From a virus: a DNA stretch of 26,222 bases. The stretch spans positions 1 through 26,222 of IMG/VR virus record IMGVR_UViG_3300023109_000116. The stretch is one strand, 5' to 3'. Both the position numbers and the translations under genes were made by a program. The notes under the pieces were generated by a model. That model saw only the letters and a list, made by a program, of their open reading frames with translations, was not told the origin of the DNA and ran no database searches. Shown here in pieces: positions 1 through 16,609 of this stretch (positions within the stretch are counted from its first letter, which is position 1; each line of letters starts with the position of its first letter).

Positions 1-134
1 AAGAATTTCGCGTAATTTTAAGAGATTGGTGGAAGAGTGGAAAGTATCAAAACGATAGCGTCAAGAACTGGAACGACTATACAGACATCTCTCCAACTGA
101 CACAAGAATATTAATGAAATTAATTAATGAGTGA
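1..134 (+). CDS. C-terminal end of an unrecognised plus-strand protein (partial)
   Basis: Frame 3 is open from the left edge to a TGA at 132-134 and gives 43 residues. The other two plus frames stop at once or by base 58. The peptide has ordinary protein-like composition (Trp, Asp, Lys and Asn rich, with the motif RDWWKSGKYQND and the end TRILMKLINE). The start lies outside the window. It converges on the last gene of the minus-strand tail operon and overlaps its 3' end by 15 bases (120-134). I do not recognise a family and assign no function. It marks the left border of the tail transcription unit. A chance open frame of this length is possible, but this stretch is not covered by a minus-strand gene and would otherwise be empty. 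Confidence 0.55.
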   Translation, partial: EFRVILRDWWKSGKYQNDSVKNWNDYTDISPTDTRILMKLINE

Positions 135-707
135 CTCTTTTATTAAGTTTAACTCTTTTTCTAATTCCTCTATCTGAGCGTCTTGTTCCTGTGTTGCCCC
201 AACCAATAAAGGCACAATTTTTTCATACTTAATACCGAGATACCCATTACTTCTTTCTTCAACTATTTCGGGAGCAATTTTTTGTACCTGTTGAGCGATT
301 AAACCCAAGTCTCTACCTTTGTAGGTTTTTTGAAGATCTTCATTCCAATTAAATTCTATAGCATCAAGAGATAAAATTTTATCTAAACAATTTGGTATAT
401 TTTTTATATCATCCTTAAGTCTCTCATCTGAGGTGGAGAAAGCTATAATATCTGCTTCACATTCTATATTGCCCCTGCAATGAATTGGCCCATCTACAAC
501 CATTCCATTAATCAAGCCGACATAAAACTTATCGTCATTATCTGCAGATCCCCCTGCCGCATTAGCGCCTAACGCAGTTACATTATCACCAATCACATGA
601 ACATTATTTGCACCTGATATTAAATTATTTGCACCATTAATTACGGTACAATAATCTGATGAACTAATTGTATTTAAATGCCCTCCTAAAATTACATTGC
701 TACTCAT
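120..707 (-). CDS. Short tail-fibre tip protein with beta-roll repeats and C-terminal S74 intramolecular chaperone
   Basis: 195 residues. Residues 5-50 are GG/GANN-type short repeats (ILGGHLNTI, VINGANNLI) like the left-handed beta-roll of YadA-type heads. Residues 90-195 are a peptidase S74 / endosialidase-type intramolecular chaperone: the SDERLK motif at 93-98 keeps the Ser and Lys thought to drive self-cleavage, followed by LGLIAQQVQKIAPEIV (134-149), YEKIVPLLVGA (161-171) and a coiled-coil tail (171-195). In this family the domain trimerises the fibre and is then cut off just before the Ser, here leaving about 92 residues in the mature tip. The ATG overlaps the upstream stop (ATGA) and, unusually for this operon, has its own AAAGGA site. 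The N-terminal repeats look like a direct continuation of the end of the 2405-residue fibre protein three genes upstream. The S74 call is very secure; the trimeric fibre role is inferred from the family. Confidence 0.9.
   Translation of the reverse strand: MSSNVILGGHLNTISSSDYCTVINGANNLISGANNVHVIGDNVTALGANAAGGSADNDDKFYVGLINGMVVDGPIHCRGNIECEADIIAFSTSDERLKDDIKNIPNCLDKILSLDAIEFNWNEDLQKTYKGRDLGLIAQQVQKIAPEIVEERSNGYLGIKYEKIVPLLVGATQEQDAQIEELEKELNLIKESLIN
123..431 (-). other. S74 chaperone domain, copy 1
   Basis: Residues 93-195 of the 195-residue protein. The cleavage-site Ser93 and Lys98 are both present in SDERLK, so self-processing is expected. The last 25 residues are Glu/Leu heptads. Confidence 0.88.
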
Positions 708-1774
708 ATATAATCCTTTATTTCTTTTATTTTACTTTTTAAATTATCTATTTTTTTCTGTTTTTCTTTTACGCATGAAACTAAAATTGGTATCATCTTA
801 CGATAATCAATACTTTTTACACCATCAGACCTAGTATTTGATGCCAATGGAAAACATCGCTCAACTTCCTGAGCTATTAATCCAATATCATCACCCTTTA
901 ATACCCCTTGCCTTTCATTCCAACTAAAGCTTACTGCATTTATTTTACTCAATAAACTCAAAGAGTTTTTTATATTTGAACTATTTTTTTTCAATCTCTC
1001 ATCTGATAAATTATTTGATATTATATCTGCGCAAGATTCAATGACATTTGAGTTCTTAACCTGAATAGACCTGGTTGGCGGCGGCAGGGTGAAATTTCGT
1101 TCAACTACCTTAAAATACATTACTTCCAACTCATCATCTGGTTCGGTAATGCTTGGATTATAAGAAGTCCCAGGCGCAGCCCCACCCCTTTGAAACAATA
1201 CAATTTCACCGCCACTTATAGTATGATAAACATAATCCCTGTAATTATAAACCTCTTCGGAACTCCATTCAGAATAGTATACATTTAATACGCTCAACCC
1301 GTTTTTGCAATTTACATAAAAACTATTACTCAAGTAAAAATTATATAAAGATGCGCGTTCTCCCGCTAAATCCTCAGAGCTGTAATAGTTTACATAATAA
1401 TAACTTCCAGAATATTCTAACCTTAGGTCTATCCAACCATCTCTTGTCTTGATTTTTATGTAATTAGATCCGTCAATCGAAGTTATTAAATTTTGATAAT
1501 ATTCATTCAGGACTACTCTATAAACTATTCCAGAATAATATGCTTGCTTGACATAAAATTGAAAATCTACTCCCACGCAATGAGAATTATATTTTTGATA
1601 CAAGTAAAGACTTTCTGAATTTAAAATCGTGCACCTCCTACTATCCTCAATTTTACAAGAACTTCCCGCACATATTAAATTATTACTATTAAAAGAATCA
1701 ATAGAGGAATCTCTTGGTGGTTCTTGTGCAATATTTAATACCGCCGAAGTATATATAGCGTCTTCTAAAGCCAT
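704..1774 (-). CDS. Tail-fibre tip protein, Tyr-rich, with C-terminal S74 intramolecular chaperone
   Basis: 356 residues. Residues about 30-55 are a short Cys-containing repeat stretch (ICAGSSCKI, CTILNS) resembling beta-roll turns. Residues 60-190 form a strongly tyrosine-rich, beta-looking domain with no family I recognise (for example GSYYYVNYYSS), the best candidate for a receptor contact surface in this gene. Residues 190-235 are a Gly/Pro linker (FQRGGAAPG, TLPPPTRS). Residues 250-356 are a second S74 chaperone with SDERLK at 257-262, IGLIAQEVERCFP (297-309), YRKMIPILV (324-332) and a Lys-rich coiled coil. The start follows the upstream TAA by three bases and has no Shine-Dalgarno sequence, so reinitiation is likely. 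It is not a simple duplicate of the 195-residue protein: only the S74 part is clearly shared. Confidence 0.87.
   Translation of the reverse strand: MALEDAIYTSAVLNIAQEPPRDSSIDSFNSNNLICAGSSCKIEDSRRCTILNSESLYLYQKYNSHCVGVDFQFYVKQAYYSGIVYRVVLNEYYQNLITSIDGSNYIKIKTRDGWIDLRLEYSGSYYYVNYYSSEDLAGERASLYNFYLSNSFYVNCKNGLSVLNVYYSEWSSEEVYNYRDYVYHTISGGEIVLFQRGGAAPGTSYNPSITEPDDELEVMYFKVVERNFTLPPPTRSIQVKNSNVIESCADIISNNLSDERLKKNSSNIKNSLSLLSKINAVSFSWNERQGVLKGDDIGLIAQEVERCFPLASNTRSDGVKSIDYRKMIPILVSCVKEKQKKIDNLKSKIKEIKDYI
707..1006 (-). other. S74 chaperone domain, copy 2
   Basis: Residues 257-356 of the 356-residue protein. Ser257 and Lys262 are kept in SDERLK. It is divergent from copy 1 outside the core motifs (SDERLK, GLIAQ-V, the I-P-L/ILV strand), which argues against very recent duplication. 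Confidence 0.85.
714..719 (-). promoter_or_regulatory. Ribosome binding site of the last tail gene
   Basis: On the minus strand the sequence reads AAAGGA, six bases before the ATG at 705-707. It is one of the few well-spaced Shine-Dalgarno sequences in the operon, inside the end of the upstream coding region. It suggests independent initiation for the final S74 protein. Confidence 0.65.
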
Positions 1775-1777
1775 TTT

Positions 1778-2380
1778 TTAAAAAGAATAATATTGAATCG
1801 AAGAAACAGGGCCATCTCCTAAGTTTTTTAATTTCTCAGAAACAAATATATTTCCATTTTCATTTATTATGAATGCATGATACCCAGAATTAACACCAGC
1901 ATCTCTCCACAAAAAAAGCCCATAGCCCTCGGAAAAGGTTCCTAATACAGAAGAGTTATTTATGTATTGAGGCTCAAAAGCCCAATGCCTTAAGATATTA
2001 GATCTTTGAAAATAAGTCCAACCAAAATCACCAATTGGATCTACATTTTTACTTAAAAAATAAAACCATATACCTACTGTTTCTAAATTACTATATATAA
2101 TAGGAGCAAGGTATATCCAACTCAAGTTTTGATGAAGTACCCACCCACCTCTTTCAAATCCAAGATCAATTCCTACTACATATATAGCATTATTCCAATA
2201 ACCATATCCATTAGTTTTTATCATGTTATCATTTATCGATTGATCATCAGATCTAAATAAACATGTATTAGAAAGAAAATTATTCTCAAGAGTGCAATCT
2301 TTACCCTGAGACCCCAGCACTCTTGCAGAGTACAATCCCCCATCAGGATCCTTTACTACATTTGCCAATAAATCTGCCAT
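1778..2380 (-). CDS. Small Trp-rich fibre-tip protein without chaperone
   Basis: 200 residues, no known family by eye. Residues 1-55 begin with a beta-roll-like stretch (VLGSQGKDCTLENN). Residues 74-125 hold a Trp/Tyr-rich module with GGWVLHQNLSWIYL, GIWFYF and FGWTYFQ, which recurs in the I-J fusion and in the M-like giant of this operon. Residues 150-180 (YGLFLWRD, GYHAFIINENGNIFV) end in a short strand-rich tail. Unlike its two downstream neighbours it has no S74 domain. Its ATG lies one base after the stop of the 2405-residue gene, without a Shine-Dalgarno sequence, so coupled translation is likely. Position and shared repeats argue for a fibre-tip or receptor-binding accessory. It could also be a truncated relative of the S74 tips. 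Confidence 0.72.
   Translation of the reverse strand: MADLLANVVKDPDGGLYSARVLGSQGKDCTLENNFLSNTCLFRSDDQSINDNMIKTNGYGYWNNAIYVVGIDLGFERGGWVLHQNLSWIYLAPIIYSNLETVGIWFYFLSKNVDPIGDFGWTYFQRSNILRHWAFEPQYINNSSVLGTFSEGYGLFLWRDAGVNSGYHAFIINENGNIFVSEKLKNLGDGPVSSIQYYSF
2006..2161 (-). repeat. GWIYI/WFY/GW module, copy 1 (200-residue protein)
   Basis: Residues 74-125: SWIYL, then IWFYF, then FGWTYF, with the same order and spacing pattern as two other tail-tip proteins in this window (10648-10893 and 21340-21741). Confidence 0.6.
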
Positions 2381-2381
2381 T

Positions 2382-5300
2382 TTAATTTATAATTTGATTA
2401 TCACTACCACCAAGTATACTTTGATTAGTGCCACCATCTATGATATTGTTTTGACCAGCACCAATAAAATTTGCACCCTGATTAGCTGAGTCAACTTTAG
2501 GCATTTTATTTTGATAACCTCCAACAATAGCAGAGAAATTATCCCCACAAGAATTCTCAAAACCATTTCCGATAAAAGAAAATCTTCCAGTTATAGCATT
2601 ATAAGCACCACCCACAACACTTGAAGCCAGAGATTGATAACCTCCATCAGCAAGAGGAAATGGAATTATTTCATTATTATAACCTCCGCCCAAGAATGTA
2701 GAGACAGTTGTTTCTACATAAGCAGTAGCTTGACTAAATTGATGTAATGAAGCCTCTTTGACTTGTAAAACTGTTGCATTTGTAATCGTTTCTATTGTAA
2801 AAACTTGTTGATTACTACCCTCAACAATTCTAACTTGATAATGCCCAACTAAATATTGATTAAAATCAGTAGTTCCCACAGATCCATATATGGTTTTTTC
2901 TGTTTCAGCAATTTGAATGTTCCCAGGTATATTCAAACTACTCAAGTTAAATCCCACGTCTTCAGCTATAGTATTATTAACCACTGCCCCTCTCATATCT
3001 AATCTTCCTGCATCTGCATCAAATTTAAAATATGAAGGGGGTCCGTCCGCAGGATTAGTCTCTCCAACCGTAAGCGTTGTTGTTATAAACGCTTCTTCCG
3101 TTAACAATAAATCTGTTGCAACATTTTGAAACTGAGCATCAAAACTTCTCCAAAAATCTGATGGATCTCCGGGAGTTGCTGCACCTGGATTCGGACTAAT
3201 TCCGTCTCCATGAGTTTCAGTACATATATAATATAATCCATCAGTATGTTCTACAATGTCTCCTCGTCCAGGCTTATTTTCTGTACTTTCTAAAAAATAA
3301 TATCTTTTGCTTGAGTCGTATTTTCCTCGATAAGTTGGGCTAACCCCCATTACTCCATTTGCTCCAAATTTAGAAACAGCGAAACTTTGAACCTTGGTTA
3401 GGGTTACTGTTTCTCCATTTCCTTTTTGAGCTTTTATTGTAAAAGTTAATGTTCCCGCTCCAGTGGCCGAAGATAGATCTGGCATCGTATATGTAGTACT
3501 TCCTTCAGCAGTAGAACTGGTTCCAAAATTAACACCTCCAGTTTTTGAAATATTCTCCACTTTAAATTTTCCATCAGTTAAGTTGCCGCTTGTATATTGC
3601 AACAAGTTGCTTCCATCAAAAACTTGTATGTCTGTACCTGACCCGCTTAAATCAAAAGTCCCATCAGACAACTCAGTCAGCGTGTGAGACTCATTACTAA
3701 GTACCGCTTGCACATTATTAGAACCATCTTCAACAAGTATCAATGTTGTAGAATCAGATACTCCATCAACATGTGTCGCCGTTATGGTTACTTTTCCACT
3801 CCCCAAAGCTGCCTTATCAACCCAAACTTGATTGGTTGGAGTTGTAACTTTTGTTGTTCCAGTTTCACTGGTATAAATTTCGCTCGACCCACTCCATGAA
3901 GCATTAATACTTGAAGTATTTTGAGTTACGGCGGTTAATTTTATTCTATCTGGAGAAACAGATCCGTCTTTATCTTTTTTAAATACAAGAGATTCAGCAT
4001 TAATTCTTACACTTTTAGCATGAACACCTTGAATACCTTCCTTAGATTTACTGATTGAGTATCTCTTTGTGATAGTTTCTCCATCATATGTTGCAGTAAG
4101 ATCAAAAGTCTCTAAGTCGGTACTCCATGTCGACGCGGTATTATTAGATAGAGTATAAACGCCACTTCCATCGATTGTAATTTTCAAGTCGCTTTTAACT
4201 GAACTGCCGCTAATTCCGAAGGTTATACCAGTTGTAATCTTCTCTCCCCCGTAAAATACTTCAAAGTTTCCTCCTGCAGAAATTAAATTTGAAGACGAAA
4301 AACTACCATCGTTATTCGCGGGGATAGTATGATTTTCATTAGTTAAAACTCCAGCTAGCGCATTTTCTCCCTGCTTAACGCGAATAATTGAAATAGAATC
4401 AGAAGCAGATGCATTCCCAGAGGAGCCTTCTCTTACTTCAACCTTTATTACAGATGCCCCTTGGGTCCATGTATCCGGCGGCCCGTAATTAAAAGTATTG
4501 GTACTCCACGCATAAACAACTCCATCTTTTGTAAATCGATATTGGGGAAATGAGTAAAAATCAGAAGCTTCTGCAGAGATTTGAATCTGAGTAGTATTCG
4601 GGCCACTTTTAAATTTTGGAGAAAGTCCCTTGTCGTCATATATAATTGAATAATCAGTGGCTTCAAGCTTTACAGTTTTTGCGGGCTCTCCATCAATTCC
4701 TATTTTACCATCTATAACCCTTGTTATTGTTGAAGATTTTTCATAAGAAGAATATTCTCCTGACACGTATAAAACTACAGCGTCCCCAGTTGTACCAGGA
4801 ACAGGATTTGTTATAATATCATGAAATCCATCCTCAGTATCCAAGAATCCTCCATTTAATCTTGCATTAACAACTATAGAACCATCCTCTTTTCTCGTAA
4901 ATGTATGATATTGAAATCCACTAATAATTTGATTAAATCCTAATTCTCGGTAATCAAAGACTGTATATGGTTCACCACCAACAATAGATTCCATTTTAAA
5001 ATAAACTTTATCTTCATCTAAATCAGTTCTAGTATTCCTAAAAGAAACTTCAATATCTACAGAGGAGTCATCTTGCAAAACGAAACCATCATCTCCCTCT
5101 ATGTAATTAAAATATCCAGGAACAACATTAATATCAATAAAATCATAATCCTTAGTGTCACTCTGCCTTATCTTCCCTACAAGCGTTAGGGTGTCATTCT
5201 GTAAAGATAAACTACTATCTCCAGCTTGAAAAGCAAAACTTCCATCACCACTTAATAAAAAACCGCTTCTATCAAATGCATGATCAACGCCATCGAAACC

Positions 5301-8300
5301 TCTAGTTCTTATAGCTCCTTCCTCTCCATAAGTAGACCACAATGTTATATCTTGCCCAGATATTTCTCCAGCCAATATCTTATCTGCGGTTAAATCTTTA
5401 ATTCTTGCGCTATCTACTGCGGCTTCTGCTATGTTTGCTGTACCAATCAAAGCGTTAGCGAATACATTAAAAGTTGGAGTAACGAAACCATTCCTACTTC
5501 TTCCTACAATAAAATCTCCATCCTTAAAATTTGAGTTATCAGAATTAGCTGGATGTATAAGTCCAGTAGTATATTGATTATCCTCAAGCTGCCACCATAT
5601 ATAACCGTCACCCATACCTTCTATATCAGATGCATCGATTTGATACTTATCTCCACTAAAATACAAGTCATGCGAATCCCAGGTGATCTTACCTACTTCA
5701 GGATTATTAGCCTGGAAAGGATTATTCGGTTCTAAAGCTATTGTGTTAATAAACCTACTAGTTAAGGAAGTTTCAAAGTCACTTACATCTGTTGCGCTAA
5801 TCGATTCCAAGCTTAGAGATAATCCAGAAATATTATCCCCTTCAGTTAAGGCTGCTCCAGTAAAAGGACTTTTATTTCCAGCAAAATCCACAGCCCTCAC
5901 CCAGAAGTTTTTAGTTTCATTGGCGGACCCAGGATAAACAGTTTCTATAGATTTAGCGTTAGATGGAACTTCAAAAATAACCTTAGCGTTTCTAATTCTC
6001 CACGCTTCATCTACAACTTCTCTTGGCGCCACATCCCCGACACTATAAATAACACCATCAGTTTTTCTGTACCCAGTATTATTTTGTTGCTCAAAAAATC
6101 CTGTAGAGCCGTCTTCTAATCCCGTAATTAGAGATGTAGACTGCTCCCCCTCAAAACCTTCTTTATTCGCCCATACTTCAAAAAAATCTATATCATTATC
6201 AATTGTAGACCAATTTAAAAAATAATTCTCAAAAGCAGCTTGTCCATTTAAGTTTCTAACGGCAAACGGGATAGCTCCTTCTGTAATTGTTAAACCGGCT
6301 CCAACAACAGGACCATTAGACGCGTATTTGTTTTTATTATGGTATGTCTTAGGAAAGACATTAATTAACTCTGACCCATCGTAACGTACTGTATGCAAGA
6401 CACCACTACCAAAATCATCAAAAGGTAAGATTTTATAATAATAACCAGTAGCAACCTCTTTATAGGTTAATTCATACCCTTCATTTTGACCCTGAGACAA
6501 CCAATGAGACTCCCCCCAACTTTCTTTCGATTCAAAAGGATCTTCTAATATATATTGTTCATATATAAATTGGTTTTCATTGACATATTTTTCGTAATCA
6601 GGAACCGTTGGTATAATTGGAGAGTCTTCTAAAAACGTTACATTTTCCCCAAAAGAAGCATCCCCTTCTCCTATAGTAATTTTAGCTAATGTAGAACTTG
6701 GATCTTCCTGAGAGGAATACGGCAACCCATCGCTTCCGGTTATATCAAAATGCTGCTCACTTGACCTGTATAAATGAACTTTTGTGGTTTTTTCTTGAAA
6801 ATCTAATGCGTATTTAAAATTAAATTTTACTTTTGTAGTCTCAGAGACGCTATCAATAAAACCATCAGTATTATTAAAATCGTCATATAAAATATAAGGA
6901 GCAGGATTTTCTGCAGCTATACTACCTGATGAAATTATATTTTCGTTAATATCAAGCAAAAACAATTTTAATCCAACATTTCTTTTTCCTCCTTCAGGAA
7001 TAGCAGAATGCATAAGAGGAATACTTAAATATCCGGAGTCGTATTGCCAAAAAGGCTTCCATTGACAATCTTCGTAATTAGAAAGAGAGTCCCTTTCATC
7101 CATCTTGATTGCATCTATAGGCGCCCCTGTAGGATTATCCGCAAGGCATTTATAAATAGAATCATTATAAATTACTAAATCCCCAGATAAATGATCAGAA
7201 ACTATATCTTCACTTCCATTAAATACATTTACCCAATAAGAATCATCTTGATCAGGGACAATAAACCCTCCGTAATCAGGACCACTATTCTGTAAAGATA
7301 GCCAAATATCATTTTTGTAAACTGAATAATTACCTACTCCAAAATTAATTCCTGTACCCCATTCATTTGAGTTTAAATTATATTGTTCAATAATTAACTC
7401 GAAATGAGTAGTGCAATTTTCTGGATTTTGATATTCCCAATTATCTGTATCCTCATAAGGAAAAAGTGAGCCAGCCAATATATCACTCTTCGCTTTATAA
7501 ATAGCAAAACTTGAAGAGGTTAACGACTCCAATTTCCAATAAAACACGCTTTCTGATGAAGGCGTGAAAACCTCGCCCTCATTTTGCTGTATCAAACAGA
7601 AATATAATTTTCCATTATAATAAACATAATCACCCTCATTATACTCACTTGTACTGTCAAAAATACTTATCCCCCCAAATGATGGAGCGCAGACAAAAGT
7701 GTTTGAGCTATAAGAATTATTTTCATTATAAAATCCTTCTACGATAGAAGACTCCGGGCCAAAGTCTTGCGTCAATTTGTAGATGTTTCCTTGATAAAGT
7801 ACCCTGTCTTCATTTGCCTGATATGTCCTATTACTATCCCATCCTTCATAAGCAGGTCTAATTTTCTCTCCCAAATAAGAATTATTTAATAAACACTCAT
7901 ACAATCTTTCACTCGAATCTGAAAAAGTATAATCGTAATTTTCAGGGCTATAAATTTTATCATTATCAAAAAAATCCGTACCAGGAGGATAACCTTCAGT
8001 TCCGTATATACTATTATTTATTTCTCGAGTATATTCATATTCATCAAACATTCTCGCAGATATCAATCCGCCCACCTCGATAGATCCTCCTATACTAGAG
8101 TCTACAATTGTTTTTGAATTATTACCTTCAGTTATTCTATAAATATTTTGATCAGTATCTATATCATATAACACAGCATGCACGCCCAACAACCCATTAG
8201 GGTCATTAGAAGATGAAATATTTATATCACTTATGTCAACTATTTCTTCTAAATGATTAACGAAATCCCAATTAAAAACAATAGAATCCTCACGCTCTCT

Positions 8301-9599
8301 ATATCTTACGTTACCTATCTTAAGATCAAAAGATCTTGCATGTAATATTGAGTCATCAGATTTTAACTGAACTCCTTCTCTGACTAAATTATATTCAAAA
8401 CCCTTTCCATAATTGTCGTATGTACAAAAAGAATAATAATAATCAAAACCAAATTTCTGACTAAATTCAAAGTAATTATCGTATATATTTATATTATTAA
8501 AATACTCAAATTGAGGAAGGGGCCCTAAGTTTAACCAAAAATCAGTATTAGTTGGATTTTTATTTAAATCAGCTTCATGCTCTTGAATAACCTCGTAAAT
8601 ATTTCCATCTTGATATAAGTATTTTTCCCCTACATTATAAAAGTAATTATTAATTATATAATCCTGCGCATTCGCCATACCAACTATATGATTTGAACTT
8701 ATGTCTATATCTGTTTTTTCATATAATTCAAAGCCCCTCTCTACGGCAAGGATCTTTATATCAACATATTCAAAATCATTATCATTAACATTCCACAAAA
8801 ATTTACTAAAAGAAGATTGTATATTTTCAATAAAATCATCTATCTCAGGTTCAGGATTCTCACATCTTATAATTGCAGTAGAAGAATTATCGTAAGAATC
8901 GAAAGACTTTATCTCTACAGTAAAATTTCTCTCTAAACCCAAGTCTTCAAAAACAGCTTGATTTATTTCGAATGAAAAATTTCTATAATTCAGAAGAGCT
9001 CCAGATACATCATCTGTTAATAAATAATTTTGCAAACCTGGAGAACTGTTTAAAACTTCATCGGAAACAACGACTTCATCTTTTCCGTTTTTAATTTTTA
9101 TTTCAAATTTATTAAAAAATGTATCACTCAATAGATCTCTAGATAAAGACTGTCCTTCCTTAACGTGCCCAGGAGGAGCAACAAGCTCCCAAGATATTAA
9201 AGCTTTTCTTCCTATAAAATTCGAATTTACAATTAAAGTTCTATCATCTTTAGTTGGAGTGGATTGAATAACATTTGAGGCGACAGATGTATCAACATTA
9301 ATAATTACATTATTAAATAAAAAAGTCTCATTAAGCCTAGGGGCAGATATAGAAATATCTTTTTCGATATACTTTGATCTAATTCCTATATCGTTAACGG
9401 CAAAAACCCTAACATTAAACGTTCCATAATTACCTTTCAGGTCTACGGAATGAATATATTCTTCATAAGATTCATCAACTAGATTAGCACCCTTACCCAG
9501 ACTGTATTGAAAAGAATAATTATCAGAAGTACCAACTATTTCATAATTCGAAGATAAGTCGACAACGGTAAATTTTATCCCTATTATAGTTTTTTTCAT
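2382..9599 (-). CDS. Giant tail-tip/fibre protein: C-terminal half of a split J plus beta-roll fibre end
   Basis: 2405 residues. Residues 1-90 look like the rest of a fibronectin-III domain whose first strand ends the I-J protein. More FN3/Ig-like domains run to about 1250, interrupted by CBM5/12-like strips (317-362, 585-851) and a YExY-HW module (1001-1044). Residues 1390-1420 (AAVDSARIKDLTADKILAGEI) match the helical linker of gpJ-type tip proteins that precedes the central fibre. GFLLSGDGSFAFQAG follows at 1447-1461. Two tandem copies of an A-B Ig-like pair occupy 1638-2080, joined by GxxG linkers. Another CBM-like strip is at 2093-2153, then a small beta domain (2235-2295), then beta-roll repeats (2300-2405). 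It has no chaperone of its own; the S74 domains are in the following genes. The role is host recognition and the central fibre. Start: ATG one base after the J stop, no clear Shine-Dalgarno. Confidence 0.82.
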   Translation of the reverse strand: MKKTIIGIKFTVVDLSSNYEIVGTSDNYSFQYSLGKGANLVDESYEEYIHSVDLKGNYGTFNVRVFAVNDIGIRSKYIEKDISISAPRLNETFLFNNVIINVDTSVASNVIQSTPTKDDRTLIVNSNFIGRKALISWELVAPPGHVKEGQSLSRDLLSDTFFNKFEIKIKNGKDEVVVSDEVLNSSPGLQNYLLTDDVSGALLNYRNFSFEINQAVFEDLGLERNFTVEIKSFDSYDNSSTAIIRCENPEPEIDDFIENIQSSFSKFLWNVNDNDFEYVDIKILAVERGFELYEKTDIDISSNHIVGMANAQDYIINNYFYNVGEKYLYQDGNIYEVIQEHEADLNKNPTNTDFWLNLGPLPQFEYFNNINIYDNYFEFSQKFGFDYYYSFCTYDNYGKGFEYNLVREGVQLKSDDSILHARSFDLKIGNVRYREREDSIVFNWDFVNHLEEIVDISDINISSSNDPNGLLGVHAVLYDIDTDQNIYRITEGNNSKTIVDSSIGGSIEVGGLISARMFDEYEYTREINNSIYGTEGYPPGTDFFDNDKIYSPENYDYTFSDSSERLYECLLNNSYLGEKIRPAYEGWDSNRTYQANEDRVLYQGNIYKLTQDFGPESSIVEGFYNENNSYSSNTFVCAPSFGGISIFDSTSEYNEGDYVYYNGKLYFCLIQQNEGEVFTPSSESVFYWKLESLTSSSFAIYKAKSDILAGSLFPYEDTDNWEYQNPENCTTHFELIIEQYNLNSNEWGTGINFGVGNYSVYKNDIWLSLQNSGPDYGGFIVPDQDDSYWVNVFNGSEDIVSDHLSGDLVIYNDSIYKCLADNPTGAPIDAIKMDERDSLSNYEDCQWKPFWQYDSGYLSIPLMHSAIPEGGKRNVGLKLFLLDINENIISSGSIAAENPAPYILYDDFNNTDGFIDSVSETTKVKFNFKYALDFQEKTTKVHLYRSSEQHFDITGSDGLPYSSQEDPSSTLAKITIGEGDASFGENVTFLEDSPIIPTVPDYEKYVNENQFIYEQYILEDPFESKESWGESHWLSQGQNEGYELTYKEVATGYYYKILPFDDFGSGVLHTVRYDGSELINVFPKTYHNKNKYASNGPVVGAGLTITEGAIPFAVRNLNGQAAFENYFLNWSTIDNDIDFFEVWANKEGFEGEQSTSLITGLEDGSTGFFEQQNNTGYRKTDGVIYSVGDVAPREVVDEAWRIRNAKVIFEVPSNAKSIETVYPGSANETKNFWVRAVDFAGNKSPFTGAALTEGDNISGLSLSLESISATDVSDFETSLTSRFINTIALEPNNPFQANNPEVGKITWDSHDLYFSGDKYQIDASDIEGMGDGYIWWQLEDNQYTTGLIHPANSDNSNFKDGDFIVGRSRNGFVTPTFNVFANALIGTANIAEAAVDSARIKDLTADKILAGEISGQDITLWSTYGEEGAIRTRGFDGVDHAFDRSGFLLSGDGSFAFQAGDSSLSLQNDTLTLVGKIRQSDTKDYDFIDINVVPGYFNYIEGDDGFVLQDDSSVDIEVSFRNTRTDLDEDKVYFKMESIVGGEPYTVFDYRELGFNQIISGFQYHTFTRKEDGSIVVNARLNGGFLDTEDGFHDIITNPVPGTTGDAVVLYVSGEYSSYEKSSTITRVIDGKIGIDGEPAKTVKLEATDYSIIYDDKGLSPKFKSGPNTTQIQISAEASDFYSFPQYRFTKDGVVYAWSTNTFNYGPPDTWTQGASVIKVEVREGSSGNASASDSISIIRVKQGENALAGVLTNENHTIPANNDGSFSSSNLISAGGNFEVFYGGEKITTGITFGISGSSVKSDLKITIDGSGVYTLSNNTASTWSTDLETFDLTATYDGETITKRYSISKSKEGIQGVHAKSVRINAESLVFKKDKDGSVSPDRIKLTAVTQNTSSINASWSGSSEIYTSETGTTKVTTPTNQVWVDKAALGSGKVTITATHVDGVSDSTTLILVEDGSNNVQAVLSNESHTLTELSDGTFDLSGSGTDIQVFDGSNLLQYTSGNLTDGKFKVENISKTGGVNFGTSSTAEGSTTYTMPDLSSATGAGTLTFTIKAQKGNGETVTLTKVQSFAVSKFGANGVMGVSPTYRGKYDSSKRYYFLESTENKPGRGDIVEHTDGLYYICTETHGDGISPNPGAATPGDPSDFWRSFDAQFQNVATDLLLTEEAFITTTLTVGETNPADGPPSYFKFDADAGRLDMRGAVVNNTIAEDVGFNLSSLNIPGNIQIAETEKTIYGSVGTTDFNQYLVGHYQVRIVEGSNQQVFTIETITNATVLQVKEASLHQFSQATAYVETTVSTFLGGGYNNEIIPFPLADGGYQSLASSVVGGAYNAITGRFSFIGNGFENSCGDNFSAIVGGYQNKMPKVDSANQGANFIGAGQNNIIDGGTNQSILGGSDNQIIN
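2385..2702 (-). repeat. YadA-head-like beta-roll repeats at the end of the giant fibre protein
   Basis: Residues 2300-2405 contain about six turns of 13-22 residues with the pattern (hydrophobic)-GG/GAG-x-x-N-x-(I/M): FLGGGYNNEI, VVGGAYNAI, IVGGYQNKM, FIGAGQNNII, ILGGSDNQII. The protein stops right after a repeat rather than after a cap, and the pattern resumes at residue 5 of the last gene (ILGGHLNTI). Confidence 0.75.
3141..3323 (-). repeat. CBM5/12-like strip near the fibre end
   Basis: Residues 2093-2153: GDIVEHTDGLYYICTETHGD followed 20 residues later by DFWRSF. The GD-V...(L/I)Y-C...H...W pattern is that of small carbohydrate-binding modules common in phage tail proteins. Confidence 0.6.
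3360..4688 (-). repeat. Two tandem A-B Ig-like domain pairs
   Basis: Residues 1638-2080. The A units start PAKTVKLEATDYSIIYDD and HAKSVRINAESLVFKKDK. The B units start ALAGVLTNENHTIPANNDGS and NVQAVLSNESHTLTELSDGT. Each pair spans about 215-220 residues and is joined by short Gly-rich linkers (GIDGE, KQGEN, EGIQG, EDGSN). This is an internal duplication that lengthens the fibre shaft. Confidence 0.8.
6468..6599 (-). repeat. YExY...WGxxHWxxxG module, copy 1 (giant fibre protein)
   Basis: Residues 1001-1044: YEKYVNENQF at the start and WGESHWLSQGQNEGYEL at the end, about 25 residues apart. It resembles short repeats ending HW/HY-xxxG-xxEGR in bacterial secreted and surface proteins. Confidence 0.65.
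7047..7847 (-). repeat. Array of four CBM5/12-like strips
   Basis: Residues 585-851 hold four strips in a row: WDSNRTYQ...DRVLYQGNIYKL (587-609), YNEGDYVYYNGKLYFCL...FYWKL (653-690), GVGNYSVYKNDIWLSL...SYWVN (754-791) and LSGDLVIYNDSIYKCL...CQWKPF (804-850). Each has the G-D/N-x-V-x-Y-x-(N/G)-x-(I/L)-Y strand pair and a closing Trp. The Cys is present in only some. Confidence 0.62.
8514..8651 (-). repeat. CBM5/12-like strip in the N-terminal part of the giant fibre protein
   Basis: Residues 317-362: YNVGEKYLYQDGNIYEVIQEH, then DFWLNLG. Same pattern as the array further along the protein. Confidence 0.58.
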
Positions 9600-9600
9600 A

Positions 9601-12600
9601 TTAATTTATTGTAACGTCCCTAACAGTATAATCGAATAATTCCAATTCTTCGGGAGCACTAGGAATATCCATATCTGCCTGAGGAGGTATAGGTATGTAT
9701 GGTTTTATGGTGGATATGTCTCTATCAATAGCATCAAATTTAGCTGGATTATATTCACTACCAATCACTTCAAATTTACTTTCGCTTAATTCTTTTATTT
9801 TAATTACTCTATATAATTTACGATCTAAATGTATTTCATTTCTTATACTTAAACCCGAAGAGTTTTCAATATTTCCATATAATGATATTGTTCCTTCTTC
9901 GTTATAAAGTATTTCTTTCAAAGATATAGAATCAACCAACTCAATTCTGTTTTCATCTACATAGATAGTAGACCACTCCGAGTTTATTGAATTTTGAAAT
10001 TGAAGATTAGAGTCGTTTTGAGAGACTCCCGTTATGTTTATAAATAAATTTTTGTTTAAACTTAAGTTATGTCCGGAATTTAACTCCAACTGTATACAGT
10101 CTAATCCAGAAATAGAATCGTATTTATCAACAGCAAAAAATTCTTTTATAGATGACCTATTTAATCCAGGGTCAGTGTCAAGAGTTTCCTGACTAAGATC
10201 CCCCGGTACAGTCTCAGGTACTAAATCTTCAACATTTCCATCTTCATTTAAAAAACTAATAGTAAATCCCGTACTAAATAATCTAGTAATTCTAGCCTTC
10301 TTACCTTGCTCAGAACTAGAACTATTATATCCTAAATAAAAATAATTAAAATCAAAAGAATCTTTTCCTATGTGAATAATGATATTATCAAACCCATCTA
10401 AAGTTATCGAAGTTTGCTCAGGCAAAGAATTATATTCATAAACTTTCAGTGTTAACTCTGAAGAATTCCAAAATTGTTTTAATTCCTCTGTATTAGATCG
10501 AATAGGATTCCCATTTATATCATTAAGAAATATAGAATCATTTTCCCCCAAGTATGATTCTTGAACATCTACAGATCTTATATACGCAGAAAAATTCTGC
10601 ATATCATTATTAGTGACAAAAAAATGACTTATTGAATCTTCTTCATTCTTATAAATAAATAACCATGGATTAATATTTGCATGGTCTTTATATGCAGATA
10701 AGAAAATTATATTATCATCGTCATTTAGCGGCACATAAGACCAGCCTACATATTCTATATAAAACCAAATATTATCTGAATTTGTATCACTTATAGCCGC
10801 CCCTATATAAATCCAGCCTAAGTTTTTAACATGAGCCCATTTTCTAGAATGTATATACATTGAACCAAAATACCTAGAAATTGTCCACGTACTAAAGCCT
10901 ACAAAATCTTTATCTATTCCAAGAATACCTAATTCTTCGCTAGACAAAAAATCCTCTTGTATATTATCTTCTATACCGGAATTTACATAACTCTTCAAAG
11001 AATAAGTGGAACCTTCTGACACTTGATTTAAAGCTTCTAGCGTAAAATGATTATCGGAATATAAGTTTTCGGGACATACATAATGCAAGCCTCCTGAATT
11101 TTGAAGATAATCCATTCCTTCGCTATAAATATTTACTACACCTCCATTTTTTGTCTTAGATATTTGAAAGCTATGCTTGGTGGGATTTATAACGAAATAG
11201 GATTCTTCATGAATATTTCTAGATGAAATACCAGAAGGTAAGGTTCCATCACTTGTAAACCTAACCCTATCACCTTCTTTAAATCTATGGTTATATAAAA
11301 GAATTAAATTGTCTTTTATTGAAACCTTAATTAATTTCTTAAGGATTAAATCGGATATAATAGTTTCCTCAAAAACGACTCCGTTGTTTTCTTCTTGAGG
11401 AATTAAATCTACAGTGCCTTCAAATTTTATAATTTGACTTGATTGCATATTTTCTACTTCTACATCCTGATCTTGACTTGACTCGTATGTTCCCGCAGAT
11501 GCTCGTCTCGTTATATTATTAAAATCCTCCTGACCCTGTCCGCAAGATATAGTCAATTCCACCCTAGATAAGCCTCCCAAGGTTAATGCAGGCTTATCTA
11601 TTACAACATAAGGATCGAATATTCGGATTGTCTTCTTTTTCTTTATTTCCCTATATGACCCAACCTCCAAGATTCTTCCGCTTTTATATTTCCCAGATCT
11701 CATTTCATCCGAGACTTCAAAAATTGATCCAGGCAATAAGTAATTAGCGTCTAAAGATGTATTGAATTTTATATTTTCTCCCTCTAAGTTCGATGTAGTC
11801 AAAATCCACTTAGCTAATCTCTGGGCTTGAGAGCTAGAAGTTATACCAAACCCAATAGTTTCTTTTTGCGAAAATCCAAATTTCTGCATGAGAGACGGAT
11901 CTTCTTCAAAAACTATATCAGGTTTAAAAGCCTTTTCTTTATTATTGAATCTTACTATTGAGCTGCTGAATTTTTTATTTTTGTAGTCCCCAGCGTAGAC
12001 AAAACCTTCTTTTGATACATTGGAATTTGTAAATAATTTAACCGACTGCTTAGGGGAATCCATAGTAACGCTTACTTGTCCAGCTTGATAAGATATGATA
12101 CCCCTAAACACAGAACTTATTGCATTCAATGTATTTAAAGCTTCAGATTTATCATTTAAATATAAATTCGCAGTAAATCTAGGTTCTATAATTGGATAAT
12201 TAATTTGAGTAGCGCAACCTCCGTAAGAATATTTCTTGTCATCAACAGATACAAAAGAACTATCAACATCCAAACTAGGGCCAGAGATCCTCACTGTTCT
12301 TTTGTCAGGGTTAGCGCTAATAATGACCCTTTCTTCTATATTAAAATAACCTTCCTTCAAGCATGATTTTTTCTGTATATTCTTTTTTATATCTTGATTA
12401 GTTTCATTAAAATGATGTTTATTTAAAAATAGAGCAATTTTCTTACCTTTCATCGAGGAACCTTCTCCGAATTCCTTCTCAAAATCAAATCTAGAAAAAC
12501 TGATTGATTGTAATTTTTTTTCGATATCCTCAATTTTATTTTTTACTTCAATTTCCGCAGGAGATTCTCCTGATTCAGAAAGAATCTCTAAGGCTCTAAT

Positions 12601-15093
12601 TCTTAATTCTTCATTAGAGTACCCAAATATAAAAGATATTAAATTTTCAACAGTAATACCTATATTAGCATATCTTACAACTTCGGAAATAGTAGCATCT
12701 TCATTGAATATATCTTGGTATACTAAATTAATATTCTCGGAAGTTATTAAATTTGATCTTGAACCTAAACCCGAAGGAACATAAGTTGAGTTCAAAAATC
12801 TTTTTTCAGAAAATTCTGCTTCCCCATATTCATTAAAATACCAAAAATAATCCTCGATTTCTATTTCTATAAAACCATAATCGCCATTAATATTTTCATC
12901 AAAATTAACAACATTATCTGTAGAGAAAGCTCGAGGTACAGAAGTTTTTGTTTCAGGCGTGTATCCAGTTTCAACCAATTCATCGCAATATTTTGCAACT
13001 TTATATAATTGCCACTTATCAATATTGTATTCCTCTAATCCATATTTTGCCACACCAAACCTTGGGTTACTTAATATGTCATAAAATATCCACGCTGGAT
13101 TATCGCTCCAATATTTATTGGAATCCGATATAGATAATATAGAATCTCCATCGTTTTGACCCTTAAATAATCCATTCCAAGCCCCTTTATACTTTCTACT
13201 GGAAGGGTCATAATTACTAGGAATTAACATTTTCTTCATTTTTAAATGATATGTTCGCTCCGGTACTGAAGCAAAATTCCTAGAATCAAAACTTATGCTA
13301 GCTAAAGCAGTATTAGGGTAAAAAAAGTTTTCTTCTATATGTTCGGCCACAGAAGTTATATATACAACTCTTTTATTAAGAATTCCATCTATAGCATTCC
13401 ACTGCGATGTTTGGCTATCTCTTGGGCCTTGAAGTATTTGCCCGTAATTTTCATTACCATTCTCGCCCATCGTCATATCAAATTCTTCTTTTCTAGCGCT
13501 AACACTAGGATCATATTCATTACTAAGTTTTATAACTTTAAATGTCATACCACTGTTAAGCTTTTCAGTCAAATCATTCCACTCGAATTTTATATTAATA
13601 GAGAATTCATAAGAAGAGGTGGCAATACCTTCAATACGAAAATACTTTCTATCAATAATATATCTTTGATATTTATTTAATATTTCTGGATTATTATCAA
13701 CAAACAACTCGTAAGACCTTATTTTTATATCTTCAGAAATTTCACCTCCAATACTAGGCTTAAACGGCATAACTGCTTGCTCAGAGCCCGTCAAGCCGTC
13801 CCAAATTTTTTTGCCAAATTGATATTTAGGTTGATTATTCTCACTTCCATCTACAATAATTTGATTAGCAAAACCTTCGATTTCTAAATTATTAAATAGA
13901 CATACACAACCAGATTCTGGATCTAAAACATTATACTCCTTACCCGCAGATTGTACAAGTATAATAAAATCACACCAATTAAAATAAGTGTCACCCTTTT
14001 TATCTTTCCTAACCATTTGAACATTAAAATTAATATCTATTTCATTAACATTAATATTAGTTACCATGTGCGAAAATATTTTAGCTCCATTTTCTTTAGC
14101 AAACTCGACCTCATTAAAATCAGAAGACCGATTAACAGACCCAACACCTAACTCAAGATTTTCAAACTTTTCAACTTGATAAGTTTTACCATCGGAAGCG
14201 TAAGGTTTGGGCCCAAATAATAAAGCGTCATATTGCTTCGAATAGGACGCTCCAGCGAACATATTCTTAGTGCCGAAAGAATCTTCTTCTCCTGTGGATA
14301 TTTTTATTAAGTCAGAATGTTCCTGTTTAGAGTCTTCGGATAATATATAATTATATAAACCTTGATTATTCCTTACTGGCACCCCATTAAGGTATATAGC
14401 TTTATCGTATTCTTCTGGATCAACTATTTGATTCCCAGCTTCATCTACAAATCCTAAAATGGGACCCTCGCATAATAAATCAAGATATTGAATTGTAGAA
14501 AAAGATTCCAATGAATTTTGATCCTTACTGTCATCTAATTTTTTAAATGTTTTCCTTGAACTTATAACATTTGAACCTATCCTTAATCTTCCATAACCTA
14601 TTGGTACTGGAGATCCCTGCGAAGCTCTATTTGAAGGCCCGTTAAGAACATAAGATTTTGTGGAAATTTGATTACTTGTAATCTTGGGTGGGTCCGGAGG
14701 TTTAGTCAAAGCAGCGATTCCATAACTTATCGCCGTCATAATAACAGCATTAAGAATCAATTCTCCTATCACAATTTCTCCGACAATAGGTAAAACAACA
14801 GCTCCTCCTTCAATAGATGAGATTATATGTAATTCCTCAGAAATTAAACCTTGATCAAGCTCATCTTGAGATAACACATTTTCCTCAAAATCTTTTTTGC
14901 TTTTGATTTTATTTATATCTTTCTTTAATATTGTATACTTACTACCTTCATATAAAGAATGTATAACAGTATCAAGGAAATTCCCGTTGTTACAATTTAT
15001 AGCATGAAAAGCCTCAGGAATAGACTTAACATCTAATTCCCATTTTTTGCCAAATTCTTGACCCAATTTGCCGTGTAAATATATACTTTTCAC
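9601..15093 (-). CDS. J: Fusion of tail assembly protein I and central tail tip protein J
   Basis: 1830 residues, lambda-type. Residues 1-135 match gpI: SIYLHGKLGQEFGKKWELDV, then a hydrophobic Gly-rich segment at 96-128. Residues 150-1200 carry the gpJ core: VPIGYGRLRIGS (163-174), LLCEGPILGFVD (206-217), FYPNTALASISFDS (591-604), RTYHLKMKKMLIPSNYDP (613-630), DNPAWIFYDILSNPRFG (664-680), then RLAKWILTTSNLE (1092-1104) and LDANYLLPGSIFEVSDE (1114-1130). Residues 722-960 insert a region with a Glu/Lys coiled coil. Residues 1261-1320 resemble the FCCH-like domain of phage tail proteins (HRFKEGDRVRF, GTLPSGIS). Residues 1401-1482 are a Trp-rich module. The tip domain closes with LYRVIKIKE and YNPAKFDAIDRD (1760-1792). 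It forms the trimeric tail tip. The start is GTG with AAAGG six bases upstream; no early ATG exists. It ends just as the first FN3 begins. Confidence 0.92.
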   Translation of the reverse strand: MKSIYLHGKLGQEFGKKWELDVKSIPEAFHAINCNNGNFLDTVIHSLYEGSKYTILKKDINKIKSKKDFEENVLSQDELDQGLISEELHIISSIEGGAVVLPIVGEIVIGELILNAVIMTAISYGIAALTKPPDPPKITSNQISTKSYVLNGPSNRASQGSPVPIGYGRLRIGSNVISSRKTFKKLDDSKDQNSLESFSTIQYLDLLCEGPILGFVDEAGNQIVDPEEYDKAIYLNGVPVRNNQGLYNYILSEDSKQEHSDLIKISTGEEDSFGTKNMFAGASYSKQYDALLFGPKPYASDGKTYQVEKFENLELGVGSVNRSSDFNEVEFAKENGAKIFSHMVTNINVNEIDINFNVQMVRKDKKGDTYFNWCDFIILVQSAGKEYNVLDPESGCVCLFNNLEIEGFANQIIVDGSENNQPKYQFGKKIWDGLTGSEQAVMPFKPSIGGEISEDIKIRSYELFVDNNPEILNKYQRYIIDRKYFRIEGIATSSYEFSINIKFEWNDLTEKLNSGMTFKVIKLSNEYDPSVSARKEEFDMTMGENGNENYGQILQGPRDSQTSQWNAIDGILNKRVVYITSVAEHIEENFFYPNTALASISFDSRNFASVPERTYHLKMKKMLIPSNYDPSSRKYKGAWNGLFKGQNDGDSILSISDSNKYWSDNPAWIFYDILSNPRFGVAKYGLEEYNIDKWQLYKVAKYCDELVETGYTPETKTSVPRAFSTDNVVNFDENINGDYGFIEIEIEDYFWYFNEYGEAEFSEKRFLNSTYVPSGLGSRSNLITSENINLVYQDIFNEDATISEVVRYANIGITVENLISFIFGYSNEELRIRALEILSESGESPAEIEVKNKIEDIEKKLQSISFSRFDFEKEFGEGSSMKGKKIALFLNKHHFNETNQDIKKNIQKKSCLKEGYFNIEERVIISANPDKRTVRISGPSLDVDSSFVSVDDKKYSYGGCATQINYPIIEPRFTANLYLNDKSEALNTLNAISSVFRGIISYQAGQVSVTMDSPKQSVKLFTNSNVSKEGFVYAGDYKNKKFSSSIVRFNNKEKAFKPDIVFEEDPSLMQKFGFSQKETIGFGITSSSQAQRLAKWILTTSNLEGENIKFNTSLDANYLLPGSIFEVSDEMRSGKYKSGRILEVGSYREIKKKKTIRIFDPYVVIDKPALTLGGLSRVELTISCGQGQEDFNNITRRASAGTYESSQDQDVEVENMQSSQIIKFEGTVDLIPQEENNGVVFEETIISDLILKKLIKVSIKDNLILLYNHRFKEGDRVRFTSDGTLPSGISSRNIHEESYFVINPTKHSFQISKTKNGGVVNIYSEGMDYLQNSGGLHYVCPENLYSDNHFTLEALNQVSEGSTYSLKSYVNSGIEDNIQEDFLSSEELGILGIDKDFVGFSTWTISRYFGSMYIHSRKWAHVKNLGWIYIGAAISDTNSDNIWFYIEYVGWSYVPLNDDDNIIFLSAYKDHANINPWLFIYKNEEDSISHFFVTNNDMQNFSAYIRSVDVQESYLGENDSIFLNDINGNPIRSNTEELKQFWNSSELTLKVYEYNSLPEQTSITLDGFDNIIIHIGKDSFDFNYFYLGYNSSSSEQGKKARITRLFSTGFTISFLNEDGNVEDLVPETVPGDLSQETLDTDPGLNRSSIKEFFAVDKYDSISGLDCIQLELNSGHNLSLNKNLFINITGVSQNDSNLQFQNSINSEWSTIYVDENRIELVDSISLKEILYNEEGTISLYGNIENSSGLSIRNEIHLDRKLYRVIKIKELSESKFEVIGSEYNPAKFDAIDRDISTIKPYIPIPPQADMDIPSAPEELELFDYTVRDVTIN
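10648..10893 (-). repeat. GWIYI/WFY/GW module, copy 2 (I-J fusion)
   Basis: Residues 1401-1482: HVKNLGWIYIGA, NIWFYIEYVGWSYV, then FLSAYKDH and PWLFIYKN. This is the most complete copy in the window. It sits between the FCCH-like domain and the end of the J tip domain. Confidence 0.65.
14689..15093 (-). other. gpI-like N-terminal domain of the fusion
   Basis: Residues 1-135. A ubiquitin-like first strand (IYLHGKLGQEFGK) is followed by IPEAFHAINCNNGNF and by a hydrophobic stretch at 96-128 (VVLPIVGEIVIG, NAVIMTAISYGIAAL). In lambda, I and J are separate genes. Confidence 0.75.
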
Positions 15094-15434: not shown

Positions 15435-16609
15435 TAATCAAAAGGATAAGGTTCTGCGCCAGGAAATCCCCCGAAAGGTAAATTGGTTTCCTCGTGAGTT
15501 ATCGAAGCCGGATTTTTTGTTCCAGCTATTGAGTTATAACCATCCAACTCTTTTAGATTAGAAAATCTTTTTTTGCACGCCTTAATATCTTTACTGCATT
15601 CATCTTTCAGCCAATTAGATTTACTAATAAATGGATGATTTTTTGCTGGATCTGAATGAGCTTGAATACAAACAAAAACTTGCGGCACATTAATATATGG
15701 ATTGGAAGAGTTATTATTTATAATCTTAACAACATCCCCCAACTGATAACCGTATTTAGAGTCTTCGTCGCCCTCTATAAATTCATTGTTTTCATATTTA
15801 TGGCCAAATTTACTCCACTCAGGAACAGCATTCATCAATTGTCCCTTTCCTGTGTATTTGTCAGGATCAACCCTACCAAAGTTAATGCTAGAATTATTAG
15901 AATTTGCGTTTGAAGCGTACTTCAAGTCTTTAGTTAAATTTCTACCCTCTAAAGTTTCAATAGGTAAACCCTTATACCTACAACCTATAGAACACCTATA
16001 AGTCCAAGAGCAATGATTTGCTATAATTGGCCTAGCAGGAATCCAGGCCTGCTCCATTTCGAGAGCGGAAACAAGTTCGAATTGGATTGTTTTTTTATCT
16101 TCTGAAGTTTTTCTATTTATATAATATACATCTTCGGGAAAATGCGAATTAGGATCGCTTGAGCCAAAGGTATTCTTATTATTATCATTTACTCCCCTCG
16201 AAGAGATTTCGAAATTTTCATTATCAAGAAATTTGGCAAATGTTCTCTTTCGGGTAATTTTGCAGTTCATAAAATCATGATTAGAGTATATGATTTTTGA
16301 AAATAATCCTTCAGGATTTGCGATTGTTAATTTTGGCCTAGGTAATCTTCCTTCTCCTTGATACTCAAAGCCTTCCATCTTTATTGGTAAAGGTTGATAT
16401 GAATTCCCTTGCCAAACAATAGGGTTGGAACCATTGATCATCGGGCAAAACCGATAGACCGGCTCGTTATTTATATTAATTGAAAAAGAATCACTTAAAA
16501 ATTGCAGACTCTCCTGAAGATTTCCAAAATTAATTTCGTATAAATCTATAACTACCCCAGGATTAATTGACGCGATTTGCTTGTTTGTATTTGACGAAGA
16601 TCTACTCAT
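15434..16609 (-). CDS. L: Minor tail protein L (Fe-S tail tip protein) with inserted CBM-like module
   Basis: 391 residues, against about 230 for lambda gpL. The N-terminal half has the family pattern: IDLYEINFGN (21-30), PIVWQGNSYQPLPI (63-76), RLPRPKLTIANPEGLF (88-103). The Fe-S cysteines are recognisable as two pairs: HCSWTYRCSIGCRYKG (C200, C210, plus an extra C206) and ECSKDIKACKKRF (C338, C345), followed by the family's LPFGGFPG ending (377-384). In lambda gpL the two pairs are close together; here about 128 residues separate them. Residues 287-336 of that insertion (YQLGDVVKI, QVFVCIQAHSD, SNWLKD) look like a CBM5/12-type module. It forms the ring linking the tail tube end to the J trimer. 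The ATG overlaps the upstream TGA by four bases. Confidence 0.9.
   Translation of the reverse strand: MSRSSSNTNKQIASINPGVVIDLYEINFGNLQESLQFLSDSFSININNEPVYRFCPMINGSNPIVWQGNSYQPLPIKMEGFEYQGEGRLPRPKLTIANPEGLFSKIIYSNHDFMNCKITRKRTFAKFLDNENFEISSRGVNDNNKNTFGSSDPNSHFPEDVYYINRKTSEDKKTIQFELVSALEMEQAWIPARPIIANHCSWTYRCSIGCRYKGLPIETLEGRNLTKDLKYASNANSNNSSINFGRVDPDKYTGKGQLMNAVPEWSKFGHKYENNEFIEGDEDSKYGYQLGDVVKIINNNSSNPYINVPQVFVCIQAHSDPAKNHPFISKSNWLKDECSKDIKACKKRFSNLKELDGYNSIAGTKNPASITHEETNLPFGGFPGAEPYPFD
15599..15979 (-). other. Insertion between the two Fe-S cysteine pairs of gpL
   Basis: Residues 211-337. The first part (211-285) is Asn/Ser-rich and poorly structured by eye. The second (287-336) is a CBM5/12-like strip with GDVV, FVCIQAH and a closing Trp. 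The cysteines flanking it are in normal gpL context. Confidence 0.68.

Follow-up and report, generated by a model that had tools for sequence, protein, structure and literature searches.

The stretch of DNA analysed here, hereafter the window, is an IMG/VR record in full, 26,222 bases long, and its main genes all lie on the minus strand. Judged by its gene content, it is the tail module of a lambda-like siphovirus, probably a marine one, as assumed from the kind of phage. The tail genes encode proteins of 1845, 391, 105 and 1830 amino acids, followed by a 2405-aa fibre and by three small proteins of 200, 356 and 195 aa. Upstream of the fibre, J-, L- and M-like genes were recognised, with Phage-tail_3 and Phage_min_tail matches: the 1845-aa protein is M-like (Phage_min_tail), the 391-aa protein gives L-like matches, and the 1830-aa protein is J-like with an I-like start. 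The J-like gene (9601-15093) holds this lambda-I-like start within the same open reading frame, and a single base separates it from the fibre gene. The 195-aa gene is the final gene of the window, and in relatives a convergent gene stands directly after it. A preliminary description had pointed to four consecutive frames at this end, and these do exist, with lengths of 2405, 200, 356 and 195 aa, all on the minus strand. Their features are as follows.

2382-9599, minus strand: 2405-aa tail fibre (open reading frame), after the lambda-J-like tail-tip gene; bare roll end, without chaperone
2385-2705, minus strand: terminal roll of the fibre, residues 2299-2405; GG-x-x-N-x-I coils up to the final residue
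1778-2380, minus strand: 200-aa tip protein, Trp/Tyr-rich; free-standing homologue of the fused tip of class B relatives
704-1774, minus strand: 356-aa S74 protein (S74-a); N-terminal extension, roll coils, variable insert, S74
1571-1684, minus strand: roll coils of S74-a, about residues 31-68, from alignment
707-1006, minus strand: S74 domain of S74-a with conserved Ser257...Lys262, from Pfam and alignment
120-707, minus strand: 195-aa S74 protein (S74-b); no N-terminal extension; roll coils, FYVG segment, S74
570-698, minus strand: roll coils of S74-b, about residues 4-46; predicted strands 5-10, 21-26 and 37-41, spacing 16
123-431, minus strand: S74 domain of S74-b, from Pfam, with predicted self-cleavage at Ser93 (Ser93/Lys98)

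The fibre terminates in TNQSILGGSDNQIIN, directly followed by the stop codon, with neither an S74 nor any other C-terminal domain in Pfam, which bears out the earlier claim that it ends in GG-x-x-N-x-I turns without cap or chaperone. A profile of the fibre roll, built from 16 relatives, matched the head of the trimeric adhesin UspA1 (3pr7, E 5e-13; 3ntn, E 4e-4), although both matches are repeat-rich and of high bias. The single-chain AlphaFold2 model of the fibre end showed confident, repeated strands of parallel type, with a pLDDT of about 87-93 for most of its final 78 residues and a strand at 174-176 of 177, i.e. near the C-terminus. Foldseek searches with this model did not return UspA1, and VIA-align gave a middling best Z of 9.3, to unrelated solenoids, among chains from which UspA1 was absent. 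Elsewhere in the fibre, at about residues 648-683 (window ~7643), lie two CBM_5_12 carbohydrate-binding stretches (Pfam E 1.8e-13).

Both of the last two proteins carry S74, a trimerisation chaperone with a Ser-Lys dyad at its self-cleavage site (PMC8326128); such domains drive trimerisation and then remove themselves (PMC8326128, PMC7289586). The 195-aa protein starts with MSSNVILGGHLNTIS and reaches 60.3 bits in Pfam, and the C-terminal S74 of the 356-aa protein reaches 44.3 bits (cutoff 22). The preliminary description had thus been right about the former and had missed the latter. The 356-aa protein is a paralogue of the 195-aa protein, with 42% identity across residues 81-191 of the shorter one. 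Ser and Lys of S74-b (S93/K98) are invariant in 33 aligned rows, and S257/K262 are present in the 356-aa protein. PDB relatives of the S74-b profile were 6f45 (chain A), 8jov and 7dc3, and the best fold match of the 195-aa model was the MyRF ICA (S74-type) domain, with E 0.008. In this model strands are predicted from residue 5, with a 16-residue spacing at the start, at low to modest confidence (roll pLDDT about 60-68). A tree of S74, resting on few columns, gave no age order of S74-a and S74-b.

The coils of the small S74 proteins were then compared with the fibre end. A coil profile of these proteins scored the fibre C-terminus, which lies outside its training set, at 23.9 bits (E 1.6e-6), against at most 6.8 bits in 250 shuffles, whereas the reverse test, of the fibre-roll profile against residues 1-92 of the 195-aa protein, was marginal (12.7 bits; best shuffle 10.8). 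The same turns therefore recur at the start of the 195-aa protein, as previously proposed. Shorter rolls had also been proposed at the starts of the 356- and 200-aa proteins. Those of S74-a are real by alignment to other coils, the 75-bit coil score of this protein not being independent, as it belongs to the training set; the supposed coil of the 200-aa protein scored no better than shuffles with the coil profile. This latter protein found no match in Pfam, PHROG or the phage collection, in none of which was homology to known gp38 or phage tip families detectable, and its best PDB match (E 0.34) is unrelated.

Scans of viral contigs provided 44 non-redundant contigs, the window included, with the same fibre gene and a readable fibre end, and these fall into three architectures. 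In class C (n=9: the window, L013, L040, L052, L053, L060, L062, L065 and L073) the fibre has a bare roll end and is followed by a separate tip gene, an S74-a with an extension, and a short, extension-free S74-b. In class B (n=32) the roll leads through a linker into a C-terminal tip, as a rule Trp-rich, and one S74 gene with an extension follows. In class A (n=3: L050, L054 and L055) the roll is missing and S74 is fused to the fibre. The roll was thus found in 41/41 class B and C fibres and in 0/3 class A fibres, with S74 in trans for all 41 roll fibres and in cis for the three without roll. A bare roll end together with a second, extension-free S74-b occurs in 9/9 class C and 0/32 class B contigs; four of four independent pairs agree with this association, too few for significance (p 0.125). 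In all nine class C contigs, as read from the sequence ends, the fibre stops 1-4 residues past its last coil, and the last S74 protein has its first coil within about 11 residues of the start Met. S74-a and the class B S74 proteins place N-terminal extensions of 20-75 residues, often Pro-rich, before their coils. S74-a of class C often holds a variable insert and grows to 1083 aa in L073 (7085-10336), with about 900 residues between coils and S74. A glycosyltransferase gene (Glycos_transf_1) lies near the tip genes in relatives (L006, 12561-14468).

The fibre end, the 200-aa protein and one neighbouring gene had no match in 50,697 phage records, and the whole fibre found weak matches in seven records, with at most 35.5% identity. 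The genome collection gave 27 matches, mostly to the S74 end alone, that in L226 also covering the roll region, and none of the 27 names a host for this fibre family.

Pieces that are separate in the window occur fused elsewhere. Fused tips of class B fibres are homologous to the 200-aa protein (L034, E 2e-9; L061, 4e-7; L032, 8e-6; L057 and L047, 2e-5). At the fibre end of L047, in one chain, residues 3-86 match the fibre roll and residues 102-178, which begin 16 residues later, match the 200-aa protein; fibre and tip are likewise fused in L032, L057, L061 and L025. In L052, tip and S74-a form one 422-aa protein joined by a Gly/Ser/Pro linker. Finally, a roll-profile search found roll and S74 in one chain in unrelated phages, in at least eight distinct proteins (L185, L191, L192, L198, L203, L205, L213 and L215). 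The 195-aa protein aligns nearly full length with such fibre ends, after coils that match the end of the window's fibre: in L192 the fibre end matches residues 1212-1298 and the 195-aa protein residues 1290-1470, and in L205 the latter match has an E of 2e-29. These proteins present the same coils, last coil, FYVG-like segment and S74 as the 195-aa protein, but as one polypeptide. A roll that runs directly into a 195-like sequence, which the preliminary description had suggested looking for, is therefore found in distant phages. In another unrelated phage (L188, around 5001-8112), a roll fibre gene and, 28 bases behind it, a 399-aa roll+S74 gene stand side by side, and nothing points to frameshifting; the arrangement reads as an independent split.

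Closely related viruses differ in precisely this region. L038 (class B, two genes) and L040 (class C, four genes) share 96.4% identity over the 14 kb that run up to fibre codon 1501, are unrelated across the tip block, and return to 95.3% identity from codon 83 (L038) or 54 (L040) of their last S74 genes. The same pattern was seen in L021/L041, L019/L041 and L026/L057. In four pairs the right breakpoint falls inside the last S74 gene, past the coils and 23-24 residues before the predicted cleavage Ser, and in L044/L046 the break comes earlier, at codon 21; being ends of local alignments, these breakpoints are accurate to a few codons only. Since the right breakpoints lie past the coils, the fibre end and the S74-gene roll move together in most pairs. 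As a rule, then, the exchanged unit comprises the fibre end, the tip and the coils of the S74 gene, with the fibre core and the last S74 domain staying in place; some of this joint exchange could be due to linkage. Between L047 (B) and L060 (C) the S74 domains of the last genes are 92.7% identical, so that the class B S74 domain corresponds there to that of S74-b. On the fibre-core tree the architecture changes between B and C at least 4-5 times, and a single origin of the split was not supported, as the two classes are interleaved. The fusions, together with the exchange of the tip block between near-identical viruses, lend good support at the gene level to the earlier idea of a split and exchangeable tip.

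Comparison of the window with L013 showed that the tip and the two S74 genes are intact, conserved and under purifying selection, with dN of 0.09-0.13 and dS of 0.36-0.9 for the small genes. Across the last 35 residues of the fibre there are no amino-acid changes, while 10 codons differ, a degree of conservation that only about 1% of the fibre's 35-codon windows reach. In L052/L065 the conservation of the last residues is average, and strong end conservation is absent from some pairs. In the 195-aa protein the coils are more constrained than the chaperone, with dN of 0.07 for the roll part versus 0.18 for the S74 part (window/L013).

Taken together, we consider it fairly probable that the products of the four genes make up a single fibre tip of separate trimers, which would dock non-covalently through their open roll ends. 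This reading rests on the occurrence of the pieces as fusions (fibre with tip, tip with S74-a, roll with S74), and on the association of the roll with S74, in trans in 41/41 roll fibres and in cis in 3/3 without roll, and of the bare roll end with S74-b, in 9/9 versus 0/32. It draws as well on the exchange of the tip block as a unit between near-identical viruses; on the unchanged last 35 residues of the fibre and the constrained 195-aa roll in window/L013; and on predicted strands that reach the last residues of the fibre and begin at residue 5 of the 195-aa protein. The small S74 proteins would trimerise with the aid of their own S74 domains, which would then cut themselves off at the conserved Ser (Ser93 or Ser257), leaving short, roll-headed trimers. 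Because the roll end of the fibre and the roll start of the 195-aa protein are predicted to be both open and in phase, a mature S74-b trimer, of about 92 residues per chain, may dock end-on onto the fibre roll, supplying its last coils and its cap. A single in-line cap cannot be provided by both S74 proteins, and the 356-aa piece would therefore have to attach elsewhere. Receptors may be bound by the 200-aa tip and by the 356-aa piece, which carries the variable insert, both attached at the joint through leader or linker segments. With a conserved joint and a replaceable tip block, recombination in the stretch from the fibre core to the last S74 domain would change the tip in one step. More tentatively, the open end of a trimeric beta-roll may be a standard plug, onto which roll pieces that are made separately and process themselves are stacked end-on, and which any tip block with a matching roll could fit non-covalently; the family would then alternate between fused and plug-in tips, and S74-a and S74-b trimers may share one joint.

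The two S74 proteins would be easier to place on a branched fibre, in which they and the tip are side branches held by their N-terminal segments, as LtfB is on LtfA in phage DT57C, with the rolls unstacked. Such an arrangement has a precedent with two S74 proteins (PMC4728585), and it suits the 20-75-residue, often Pro-rich extensions before the coils of S74-a and the class B S74 proteins, as well as the flexible linker that ties the tip to S74-a in L052. However, S74-b is extension-free and coiled from the start, the C-terminal roll is the strongly conserved end of the fibre in the closest pair, and in four of five close pairs the exchange took the S74-gene roll and the fibre end together; on balance, we regard branching as rather unlikely. 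Lower still do we place the possibility that the 195-aa protein acts only as a chaperone in trans, i.e. that it serves as a folding template for the fibre roll without being retained in the particle. This would provide for a roll that has no chaperone of its own, S74 being a trimerisation chaperone (PMC8326128), but the part to be discarded is more conserved than the chaperone part (dN 0.07 versus 0.18, window/L013), and in the one-chain roll+S74 relatives the predicted cut would leave that segment with the mature protein.

Direct contact between the pieces is inferred only, and tip-like, Trp-rich modules occur also in the 1845-aa and, weakly, in the J-like tail proteins, both of which would suit small independent adhesins that bind elsewhere on the tail and are adjacent merely by operon order. 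The fusions in relatives, the matched roll ends and the joint exchange make this very improbable. It is scarcely credible that the four genes are one gene broken by decay or assembly error, or that they yield one protein by frameshifting or readthrough, even if they abut or overlap by a few bases. The boundaries recur in nine contigs and dN is well below dS in each small gene, and a decayed gene or assembly error was ruled out on these nine conserved cases and this ratio. As for recoding, the gaps between fibre and tip genes in class C are 1, 1, -1, 1, -8, -1, -1, 6 and -1 bases, and because they differ, no common shift or readthrough can join the two genes; this candidate was likewise ruled out.

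Multi-gene fibres with several S74 pieces are already known from DT57C LtfA/LtfB and S16 gp37/gp38. The T4 long tail fibre is not known to have S74 pieces, and its joints have different folds. It resembles the fibre of the window in that several gene products (gp34-gp37) make it up (PMC12892980). The L-shaped, branched fibre of DT57C and DT571/2 is encoded by consecutive genes, ltfA and ltfB, each with a C-terminal, predicted self-cleaving S74 (pfam13884); the two proteins are inferred to be joined on the virion, recombination exchanges their specificity regions, and spontaneous deletions fuse the genes (PMC4728585). The 356- and 195-aa genes are likewise consecutive and each ends in S74. Unlike in DT57C, where the main fibre has S74, that of the window has none (S74 in cis is confined to class A relatives); S74-b keeps only about 70-100 residues after the predicted cut, whereas both DT57C parts are large fibres; and in the window the proposed joint falls within a GG-x-x-N roll, and a third gene, which lacks S74, encodes the tip.

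In the T2/S16-type system, a gp37 fibre trimer with a self-cleaving C-terminal chaperone bears a separate receptor-binding tip, gp38 (6f45, PMC12892980, PMC7289586). Here too the tip protein is separate, and the S74-b profile matches 6f45 chain A. However, gp38 has a polyglycine type II core, and the fibre that it caps has its chaperone in cis, whereas the window's chaperone is in trans and no known family matches its 200-aa protein. In the T-shaped fibres of BASEL phages, and with gp14/gp15 in phiEco32, a distal, chaperone-bearing fibre sits on a separate proximal one (PMC11990801, PMC4728585); these distal pieces are full-size fibres, and the available text of these papers describes no open roll-to-roll joint. 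The UspA1/YadA-type head (3pr7, 3ntn) has the GG-x-x-N repeat in common with the fibre roll, but belongs to a bacterial adhesin of one unsplit chain without S74.

The suggestion that a tip of this kind would be new stands in part: a split and exchange are well supported at the gene level, but the kind is not new, as multi-gene S74 fibres are published (PMC4728585, PMC11990801). A roll split in this way, with S74 in genes of its own, was not found described in the open literature, which misses most subscription journals. As far as searched, what is new is the split site inside an adhesin-type roll, the very short S74 pieces in trans, and the gradation found in nature between fused and split forms. 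S74 is usually found in cis, at the end of a long fibre, and here it is delivered in trans, on a very short mature piece. Across the 44 related contigs, the natural fused-to-split series of one fibre tip includes near-identical pairs that differ only in the tip block, which makes testable both the use of open beta-roll ends as a non-covalent joint and the exchange of receptor-binding tips without loss of assembly. Fused, split and swapped, the tip block suggests a plug-together, exchangeable fibre tip.

Trp-rich modules resembling the tip are not confined to the fibre end. Residues 131-268 of the 1845-aa protein (gene at 16606-22143) match the L073 tip with 34% identity over 146 aa (E 4e-17), and the L017 tip gives a weak match to the J-like protein at residues ~1411-1507 (E 0.005). 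The same 1845-aa protein has, at residue 1627 (window ~17265), the sequence HEMLSMMGLG, a metalloprotease-like motif without further His residues. A module with the motif [FW]G..HW...G is present in four copies in three structural proteins, of 2405, 1845 and 449 aa (window ~6518, ~18738, ~16971 and ~23647), and the L048 tip also matches the copy in the 449-aa protein.
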